64,000 bases of DNA from Armatimonas rosea (GTDB lineage: Bacteria > Armatimonadota > Armatimonadia > Armatimonadales > Armatimonadaceae), in contig NZ_JACHGW010000001.1 of NCBI RefSeq assembly GCF_014202505.1, positions 1,488,001 to 1,552,000 of the forward strand, in the 5' to 3' direction. Of the stretch, positions 13,557 through 60,784 are shown one piece after another (position 1 is the stretch's first letter; the number at the start of each line of letters is the position of its first letter). The notes under the pieces were generated by a model that was given only the letters and a program-made list of their open reading frames with translations, was not told where the DNA came from and did not search any database. The position numbers and the translations under genes are program-made.

Positions 13557-13575
13557 CTCAAACCTCCTCTCAAGA

Positions 13576-13638
13576 CCGCCGGTTGAAACCGGCGTCTGCA
13601 ATGGCGTCGTTCCTCCGCCGCAAAGCCCATGCCGGGCT
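13576..13638. repeat. Dispersed palindromic repeat, intact copy (S1)
   Basis: Contains the palindrome GCCGGTTGAAACCGGC followed by GTCTGCAATGGC and a second arm CGCAAAGCCCATGCCGGGCT. The same order recurs at 20475-20665, where it is interrupted by an inserted element. It lies in the 119-base gap between hisH and the membrane protein gene. The GCCGG-TTGAAA-CCGGC theme resembles the REP-like hairpins around 60 kb. Confidence 0.75.
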
Positions 13639-19554: not shown

Positions 19555-19590
19555 TGCCAGGCGAACATCTGATTGCCGGAGAGAAGACAC

Positions 19591-20472
19591 GTGGAACTGA
19601 AGTTTGTTTCGATTGAGAAGATTATTGAAGACCCCGACCAGCCTCGAAAGGTGCTGGACGAGGCAGCGCTGGCGGGGCTCGCCGACTCGATCCGCCAGCA
19701 TGGGCTCCTGAACCCGATCACCGTGGTGGCGCTGGAGGGAGTCGATGCCTACCGGATTGTCACGGGAGAGCGCCGCTGGCGGGCATCGCGGCAGGCGGGG
19801 CTCACGGAGCTAGCGTGTATCGTGCGGAGCCTCGCCGATGAGACCCCCGAGAAGATGGCCGAGCAGCTGGTGGAGAACCTCCAGCGCGAGGACTTGACGC
19901 CGCTGGACAAGGCCAAGGCCCTGACCCAGCTCAAAGACACCCTGGGGGCGACCCATAAAGAGCTCGGGCAGCGCCTGGGAATCTCCGAGCGGACCGTGGG
20001 CTACCTGCTGGACCTTCTGGAGCTCCCTGAGGCCATCTCCGAGCAGATCGTCGCCTCGCCCAACCGCCCCGCCGACGGCAACCTCACCGAGAAGCACGGG
20101 CGGTTCCTGCGCCAGCTCAACGACCAGCCGGATTTGCAGGCCCACTTGGTCGAGAAGATCAAGGGCGAGAAGCTCTCCGCCGACGATACCGGTAAGCTGA
20201 CCAAGGCGATCCGGGAGAGCCCCGCTCTCGCCGATGAGATCCTGGCCGCGCCGGTTCTGGAGCTCCCGAGCCTGCTGGGCAAGCGCGATGAGACCACGTT
20301 TAGCGCGGGGCGCGGCATGGCCAAGATTGTGGAGAAGATTCCCGCGATGCTGGAAGAACTCAAGCTGGAGCGTGCCTCGGCGGCGGACCTGCCCTTTATC
20401 GAGGAGAAGCTCACCGCAGCGCGCAAGGCCATCGACGAAAAACTCGCCGAGGTCAAGGCGGCCCAGCGCTAG
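19591..20472 (+). CDS. ParB/Spo0J family partition protein
   Basis: A 293-residue ParB-type CTP-dependent DNA clamp. The N-terminal domain contains DPDQPRK, the SIRQHGLLNPI box and the CTP-binding GERRWRAS motif; the central region has a helix-turn-helix (ELGQRLGISERTVGYLLDLLELP). The C-terminus is charged and helical. The GTG at 19591 with GGAGA upstream is preferred over an in-frame TTG at 19573 that would include that site. No parA gene or parS cluster is visible nearby, so it could be the chromosomal ParB or a Noc-like/regulatory paralogue. Confidence 0.85.
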   Translation: MELKFVSIEKIIEDPDQPRKVLDEAALAGLADSIRQHGLLNPITVVALEGVDAYRIVTGERRWRASRQAGLTELACIVRSLADETPEKMAEQLVENLQREDLTPLDKAKALTQLKDTLGATHKELGQRLGISERTVGYLLDLLELPEAISEQIVASPNRPADGNLTEKHGRFLRQLNDQPDLQAHLVEKIKGEKLSADDTGKLTKAIRESPALADEILAAPVLELPSLLGKRDETTFSAGRGMAKIVEKIPAMLEELKLERASAADLPFIEEKLTAARKAIDEKLAEVKAAQR

Positions 20473-20474
20473 TT

Positions 20475-20665
20475 GCCGCCGGTTGATGTATGTTGCGTAA
20501 TTAATCCGTCAGTTTCGAAGGTGAGTTGACTGCCCTCTTTTTGTCGAGGAATTCTGAGGGCGGCTGCCTGTCAGAAATGCCTCTGAACGCACTCACGGAT
20601 TAAATTCGCAACATACATAAACCGGCGTCTGCAATGGCCTTCGGCCGCAAAGCCCGTGCCGGGCT
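20475..20665. repeat. Dispersed palindromic repeat, interrupted copy (S2)
   Basis: The left part GCCGCCGGTTGA (20475-20486) and right part ACCGGCGTCTGCAATGGC...CGCAAAGCCCGTGCCGGGCT (from 20621) together match the intact copy at 13576-13638. They are separated by about 130 bases of an inverted-repeat element. Confidence 0.75.
20483..20621. mobile_element. MITE-like inverted-repeat element
   Basis: Terminal 27-base arms at 20483-20509 and 20595-20621 are inverted copies with 24 of 27 matching positions (core ATGTATGTTGCG). The interior is non-coding and holds a smaller hairpin (TGCCCTC / GAGGGCG). The element interrupts the palindromic repeat S2, so it looks like a small non-autonomous transposable element. 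A clean target duplication is not evident and no matching transposase is in the window. Confidence 0.65.
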
Positions 20666-56225: not shown

Positions 56226-56252
56226 CCACCCCGGTTTGGATCGCCCCCGTTT

Positions 56253-56435
56253 GGATCGCCCCCATATTAGATCGCCCCCATGAACGGGGGCGTCTTACTA
56301 TCGTCGCAAGCTCCGACACGAAGGCCTCCGGCCATATCCCGAGTTTACTCGGGATGGGCGCAGCCCTTTGTGTCCGAGGCACGAGGACTGCAAGACGCCC
56401 CGTTTCATCGGGGCGATCTAATATGGGGGCGATCC
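56253..56435. repeat. 183-base inverted-repeat element
   Basis: Perfect 26-base inverted ends (56253-56278 and 56410-56435; core CATATTAGATCGCCCC) enclose further hairpins: CCCCCATGAACGGGGG, its facing partner GCCCCGTTTCATCGGGGC, and ATCCCGAGTTTACTCGGGAT at the centre. A shorter direct copy of GGATCGCCCCC lies just left of the element. It is non-coding, upstream of deoB. The CCCCCATGAA(C/T)GGGGG hairpin is shared with the palindrome at 36362. Confidence 0.8.
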
Positions 56436-56444
56436 CGAGGAAAA

Positions 56445-59938: not shown

Positions 59939-59982
59939 GTGCGGGATATTGTATCGGGGATTGCCGGGGGGTGCCGGGGGAT

Positions 59983-60098
59983 GCCGGGGATTGAAAGCCC
60001 CGGCAGAAGGTGGGGAGCGCCCCGTGGGCGCGGAAAGTGTTGCGCTCTGCGCGTCCTCGAGACGCTCCCTGAAACCGCAGGCGGGTATTTCAATGCTC
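59983..60098. repeat. Three-hairpin palindromic module flanking the transposase, left copy (R2)
   Basis: GCCGGGGATTGAAAGCCCCGGC-like hairpin (59983-60004), a degenerate central stem (GAGCGCCCCGTGGGCGC ... GACGCTC) and a remnant third hairpin near 60080. The reverse complement of the right copy at 60622-60739 matches it in the same order. Confidence 0.8.
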
Positions 60099-60166
60099 GC
60101 TGACGGCCCCAAAAAATAAATGGGTCGATTTTATCAGATTTGGCTACTCTCAACCGTTTATGGGAC

Positions 60167-60598
60167 ATGAGACGACAGAGTAAGATCGATGTGCACTACC
60201 ACTTGGTGTGGGCGACAAAACATCGCCAGTGTTGGTTAGACGGCTCCTGTGAGCGGCTTGCGTATTCCGTGATTCGGCGGGAAGCAGAAGAGGTGGGCTG
60301 TGTGGTCTTGGCACTCAATGGAATGCCAGACCATGTCCACCTAGTGGTGCGTACGCGCTCGTGCGTAAGCCCTGCGATTCTGGCAAAGCAAGTCAAGGGA
60401 GTCTCCTCGACCTGTATAAATGATGCGCAGCTCTTGGGCGACACTCTCTTTCGCTGGCAGGACGGCTATGCCTGCTTCAGCCTGAGCCGCTCGCATGTCG
60501 CTCGGGTTATTGCCTATGTCGAGCGGCAGAAAGAACATCACGCTGACCAAACAATCTGGGCGGAGTGGGAAGAGACCGACGTGGAGGTGGGGAACTGA
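60167..60598 (+). CDS. REP-associated tyrosine transposase (RAYT/IS200-like)
   Basis: A 143-residue Y1 transposase of the IS200/IS605 superfamily. The HUH metal motif is His56-x-His58 in GMPDHVHLVV, and the nucleophile is Tyr117 in VIAYVERQKEHH. FRWQDGYACFSLSRS is a phrase typical of RAYT proteins. Such enzymes cut single-stranded DNA at REP palindromes. The gene is flanked by inverted palindromic modules at both ends, as in RAYT loci. ATG at 60167 is preferred over a TTG at 60140. The reading frame is intact. Confidence 0.88.
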   Translation: MRRQSKIDVHYHLVWATKHRQCWLDGSCERLAYSVIRREAEEVGCVVLALNGMPDHVHLVVRTRSCVSPAILAKQVKGVSSTCINDAQLLGDTLFRWQDGYACFSLSRSHVARVIAYVERQKEHHADQTIWAEWEETDVEVGN

Positions 60599-60621
60599 AA
60601 GAAGCACGTTACCGGGGGGAG

Positions 60622-60739
60622 GGCGGGGATTGAAAGCCCCGCCTGCGGCAGAGGGAGCGTCCCGAGGACGCGCAGAGAGCTGGTGTTTGTGCGCCCACGG
60701 GGCGCTCCCCACCTTCTGCCGGGGCTTTCAATCCCCGGC
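60622..60739. repeat. Three-hairpin palindromic module flanking the transposase, right copy (R3)
   Basis: GGCGGGGATTGAAAGCCCCG hairpin (60622-60643), central stem halves GAGCGTCCCGAGGACGC and GCGCCCACGGGGCGCTC, then the GCCGGGG/CCCCGGC hairpin at 60718-60739. It is oriented opposite to the left copy, so the pair forms inverted flanks around the transposase gene. Confidence 0.8.
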
Positions 60740-60784
60740 AGCCCCCGGCAACACCCCGGCAATCCTCTGATATACTACTCCGTT

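Follow-up and report, generated by a model that had tools for sequence, protein, structure and literature searches.

REPs are documented insertion targets for insertion sequences (ISs) of five IS families (PMC1525189), and the REP-inserting elements include IS1397, ISKpn1, IS621, ISPa11, ISPpu9 and ISPpu10 (Tobes & Pareja, PMC1525189). Bacterial MITEs are defined as sequences of 70-300 bp with terminal inverted repeats of 15-30 bp and no coding capacity, and a survey covering both GTAG and CGTC REPs found the CGTC REPs without a linked transposase (PMC3733652). At the locus described here, part of a 64-kb stretch of DNA that was analysed as a whole (the window), a REP-type repeat is interrupted, in the loop of its first hairpin, by a short sequence with inverted ends.

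The interrupted repeat (filled site) occupies positions 20475-20665 on the plus strand, just past the stop codon of parB and between two convergent genes; the ParB-family gene itself (19573-20472, plus strand; Pfam ParB_N 1.2e-25, HTH_ParB 2.8e-16) stops 2 bp short of the repeat. Direct reading and the covariation of the H1 stem across copies place the 5' arm of hairpin H1, CGCCGGTT, at 20477-20484 and its 3' arm, AACCGGCG followed by TC, at 20620-20627, while covariation also delimits H2 (20635-20647) and H3 (AGCCCGTGCCGGGCT, 20651-20665), all on the plus strand. The right part of the site, 20603-20665, is matched by the covariance model of the repeat with an E-value of 1.3e-13. Between the H1 arms lies a 133-bp sequence of 46% GC (20486-20618, no strand assigned), so that the filled copy reads GCCGCCGGTTG, ending at 20485, then ATGTATGTTGCG...CGCAACATACAT, then AAACCGGCGTCTGCAATGGC. 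Both junctions are clean, with GGTTG running up to 20485 and AAACC starting at 20619, and the insert sits exactly in the 2-3-nt apical loop of H1. The site, read directly from the sequence, lies well inside a contig of 1.69 Mb in a single assembly that is 98% complete.

An uninterrupted, or empty, copy of the repeat is present in the same window at 13573-13638 (plus strand; covariance-model match, E 3.6e-17). There CCGCCGGTTGAAACCGGCG at 13576-13594 passes directly into TCTGCAATGGC, and the whole copy runs unbroken as CCGCCGGTTGAAACCGGCGTCTGCAATGGC; its downstream inverted partner is decayed. The sequence AACCGGCGTCTGCAATGGC occurs twice in the 64-kb window against 0.02 occurrences expected.

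The insert is a pronounced inverted repeat. Its left end (ATGTATGTTGCG..., 20486-20512, plus strand) and right end (20592-20618, minus strand) pair at 24 of 27 positions, the first 12 bp perfectly, and when the arms of the host hairpin are included the inverted repeat extends to 37 nt at 89% (20477-20513 / 20591-20627). As the insert occupies the apical loop, both inverted repeats share one centre and together form a single long hairpin. Folding of the insert alone gives z = -5.8 and of the whole filled site z = -8.2, with none of 200 shuffles as good in either case; the ends of every other 133-mer in the window match at 20 of 27 positions at best, and only four closely spaced inverted pairs of at least 23/27 exist in the 64 kb. 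These shuffled folds and the rarity of comparable pairs in the window argue that the inverted ends are not a product of chance. The insert is AT-richer than its surroundings (46% against 62% GC in the window) and non-coding, with no ORF of at least 80 aa inside.

The order of events follows from two comparisons. Across 123 distinct copies of the repeat in two genomes, that of the window and that of a congener, the H1 loop measures 2-4 nt in 120, and no other copy holds the insert, which excludes its deletion from the other copies. The three exceptions are the filled site, a weak match outside the family and L169, a copy from the congener; L169 was considered as a second loop insertion and rejected, since its H1 is truncated and the sequence read there contains no distal arm. 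In the congener, moreover, the orthologous parB (90% identical) passes straight into the downstream region, with neither repeat nor insert. Since the congener site lacks the repeat and the insert lies inside the repeat, the repeat came first and the insert second. The initial annotation had described two repeat halves split by some 130 bases with 27-base inverted ends matching at 24 positions, and had taken the pair of sites as an empty-site/filled-site comparison in which the inner sequence is younger than a dispersed repeat. All of this holds: the separation is 133 bp as read directly, the end match is the same, the exact junctions and the unbroken copy at 13573-13638 make the comparison genuine, and the short loops of 120 of the 123 copies, together with the congener site free of both sequences, support the order. 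The converse that it had named, in which other copies always contain the inner element, does not apply, as 0 other copies carry it.

Searches by sequence and by ends revealed no second copy of the insert in its own genome, and no relative among 291 genomes of the phylum or in viral contigs, plasmids or phages. Paired ends with up to 3 mismatches were found nowhere else in genomes of the same family, and the paired-end pattern had zero matches in viral contigs. No IS or transposase with ends matching the insert (TGTATGTTGCG) was present in the genomes searched, and an Rfam scan of the window reported only tRNAs, with no match at the insert. Several weaker candidates were rejected. ATGTATGTTGCG with at most 1 mismatch occurs at 11 places in the genome, two of which are the insert's own ends; those of the others that were read are unpaired, chance-like and in unrelated contexts. 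A broken Y1 gene is found some 200 bp away from one of them, in surroundings unlike the insert. Weak blast matches in genomes G030 and G087 and 19 viral matches to the end pattern contained no element with suitable paired ends, and the sole match of a GTDB-wide pattern scan, in Clostridium, was chance-like, as the sequence read around it lacks a second end.

In the flanks, GGTTG and AAACC, no target duplication reaches 2 bp; compared with the GA or GAA loops of empty copies, the duplication amounts to 0 or 1 bp (A). An IS630-like TA duplication would require an empty loop GGTTTAAACC, a type absent among the 123 copies. Most MITEs of DDE transposons leave a target-site duplication of at least 2 bp, which counts against the insert as such an element. 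Two features of MITEs are thus present, namely terminal inverted repeats within about 10-30 bp (24/27, first 12 perfect) and short length without coding capacity, and three are absent, namely multiple dispersed copies, a target-site duplication and a transposase-bearing parental element that shares the ends; the sequence is accordingly named a single inverted-repeat insertion, probably of mobile origin. The designation as a MITE therefore lacks support, given a single copy, no relatives in 291 genomes, a duplication below 2 bp and the failure to find a transposase whose ends match. That the element "moved" stands in the sense that it was inserted; its moving as a transposable family finds no support in a single copy. 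Of the follow-up that the initial annotation proposed, a genome search for the ends yielded no second paired-end copy, the search for a transposase with matching ends found none, and the target duplication, which was to be determined from several copies, could be read from one insert only, at 1 bp or less by comparison with empty loops.

The host repeat is a structured family in its own right. Blast of the filled site against its own genome recovers the right-hand part dozens of times and the insert once only. Aligned copies share three hairpins: H1, CGCCGGTT-GGA-AACCGGCG followed by TC; H2, TGGCC-TTC-GGCCG; and H3, AGCCCG-TGC-CGGGCT. H1 stems differ between copies yet stay complementary (GGTT/AACC, GATT/AATC, CCAT/ATGG, TAAT/ATTA), and over 42 copies 95% of stem cells are paired, against 31-41% with the partner slid; both sides have changed in 71 cells, compared with 18 after shuffling. 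This covariation suggests that it is as a folded strand that the repeat is kept or spreads. The covariance model detects at least 81 copies in the genome at E <= 1e-10 and at least about 89 matches in the congener, both lower bounds, because scoring covered 150 of 4905 candidates; other genomes of the family and phylum gave few or weak matches. Most copies stand in inverted doublets in which H3 faces the centre and H1 the outside, at least some 45 pairs among those listed, with spacers mostly of 10-18 bp; no target duplications are visible in the flanks of the doublets. The family thus shares with REPs a short palindrome in many copies, in an intergenic position as judged from few copies, and with REPINs the inverted doublets; the GTAG expected 5' of a REP or REPIN hairpin is not conserved ahead of H1, where the sequence is variable. 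In some copies other loops are enlarged: three copies (L130:161-253, L131:248-339, L134:345-447) have an H2 loop of 33-35 nt that contains two additional hairpins, and in eight the H3 loop has grown to a 15-nt self-complementary stretch.

The repeat is also associated with Y1 genes, as expected of a REP/RAYT system. In the congener, a Y1 (IS200-like) gene (L183, 1459-1911) lies within an inverted pair of copies of the host repeat (1341-1398 / 1917-1974, E about 1e-13), and another lies between two doublets of the three-hairpin repeat (L180:1305-2076). The genome of the window has seven Y1 genes, most of them flanked by inverted, related but diverged hairpin repeats. The Y1 proteins score above the NCBIfam IS200 cut-off and below the NCBIfam REP-associated cut-off, and are therefore termed RAYT-like rather than RAYTs. 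Because its relatives flank IS200-like (Y1) transposase genes, the host repeat, a three-hairpin REP-type element, is REPIN-like. On the strength of this association, the economical reading is that the doublets are gene-less derivatives of Y1 elements, and a Y1 protein may well be what moves the host repeat.

The window holds further structures of this kind. What appears to be a small Y1 element in complete form lies at 59971-60746, where hairpin repeats in inverted orientation (GCCGGGGATTGAAAGCCCCGGC...) enclose a Y1_Tnp gene (60140-60598). At about 56250-56436 lies a doublet of a second REPIN-like family (GATCGCCCCCATGAACGGGGGCGTC...); the genome holds about 40 relatives of it, and the one at C2:820396-820482 adjoins a Y1 gene at C2:819986. 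Outside the window, the spacer of one orthologous doublet, whose flanks match in both species, is 16 bp long in this genome (L085:1501-1656; C1:899395-899550) and, in the congener (L151:767-1593; C126:21166-21992), 699 bp long with a 209-aa SUKH/SMI1-KNR4 gene, a difference reflecting either gene capture or loss in the centre of the doublet. Another congener doublet (L150:754-1453) surrounds a 184-aa DUF7822 gene; such doublets may act as bracketed gene cassettes.

Taken together, the observations are best explained by a nested insertion, of a REP-type repeat and then of foreign inverted-repeat DNA in its H1 loop, to which we assign a probability of roughly 0.7. As comparison with the congener shows, a member of the three-hairpin, REPIN-like family, which is akin to the termini of IS200-like Y1 elements, inserted just after the parB stop, between the convergent genes. 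Later, as the junctions show, foreign DNA of lower GC, 132-133 bp long, entered the H1 loop (GGTTG|AAACC) with a duplication of 0-1 bp. Most probably the inserted DNA was a mobile element, short and non-autonomous, whose ends would have been recognised by a recombinase from elsewhere that was possibly drawn by the hairpin or palindrome. Against the nested insertion weighs that mobility is deduced from one event, with one copy of the insert in the sequences searched, that the target duplication stays below 2 bp and that the search for a matching transposase found none; arrival in the loop, roughly 3 of 63 positions, could also be luck. It is tempting to go further and propose a new class of small mobile DNA that targets hairpin or cruciform loops by structure and leaves no target duplication, in which case REP loops would be landing sites for inserts of this type; we regard such a class as improbable.

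A less probable but still plausible origin is that the H1 loop grew by an error of replication or repair rather than by transposition, through template switching at the palindrome, capture of a filler fragment or end joining in a cruciform, the inverted ends then being a continued extension of the hairpin. Such an origin is possible because the H2 and H3 loops, too, are enlarged in other copies (three and eight, respectively), and it accords with an insert that directly lengthens the H1 stem, is single-copy and lacks a target duplication; it sits poorly with 133 bp of a GC content unlike that of the genome and no source sequence in it, and with perfect 12-bp ends that begin exactly at the loop, as in a transposon. 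The strong fold (z -8.2) and the position just after parB between convergent genes would also suit a long hairpin selected for function, as a bidirectional terminator or RNA-stability element, and REPs often lie downstream of genes (PMC3733652), but the insert is conserved in no relative, has no Rfam match and is dispensed with by the congener, making selection improbable as its explanation. That the insert is ancestral and the other copies are deletions has hardly any probability: 120 of 123 copies in two species have loops of 2-4 nt, the insert occurs nowhere else, covariation shows the hairpins intact in their stems and short loops, and no point in favour was found. An assembly or sequencing artefact, to which one occurrence in one assembly might point, is just as hard to credit: the assembly is 98% complete, the site is well inside its 1.69-Mb contig, and the junctions are clean, with no other copy to mis-join.

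What the nested insertion offers is a clean empty/filled pair with a defined order, which helps to place mobile-DNA events in sequence. More important than the insert is the host repeat: it forms a REP-type family with a covarying structure, and its doublets correspond to the termini of Y1 transposase elements of the same genus; this Y1 linkage bears on a question raised in PMC3733652, namely what moves CGTC-like REPs. With CGTC-tagged REPs (PMC3733652) the host repeat shares an 8-bp stem with CGTC at its 3' edge, a short loop and an arrangement mostly in inverted doublets, but its CG is paired, H2 and H3 follow and Y1 genes lie between repeats; because of the paired CG and the extra hairpins, membership among CGTC REPs is not claimed. 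Its hairpins, inverted doublets and Y1-flanking relatives resemble REPIN/BIME and RAYT/TIRYT systems (PMC3116915, PMC2817692, PMC3733652), although REPINs and BIMEs have one hairpin preceded by GTAG, whereas the host repeat has three, with H1 followed by (CG)TC, and although the linked Y1 proteins fall under the NCBIfam REP-associated cut-off and above that for IS200. The insert resembles bacterial MITEs in its 133 bp, 27-bp inverted ends, lack of coding capacity and strong fold, and differs from them in having no repeated copies, recognisable target duplication or parental IS. Like the REP-inserting ISs (PMC1525189), it is mobile-looking DNA within a REP palindrome that leaves both REP halves in place; those ISs carry transposase genes and occur in several copies, whereas the insert is 133 bp, non-coding and single-copy, with no matching transposase found. 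The event is thus of a known type, insertion into a REP, with a smaller guest: a sound but ordinary nested insertion.
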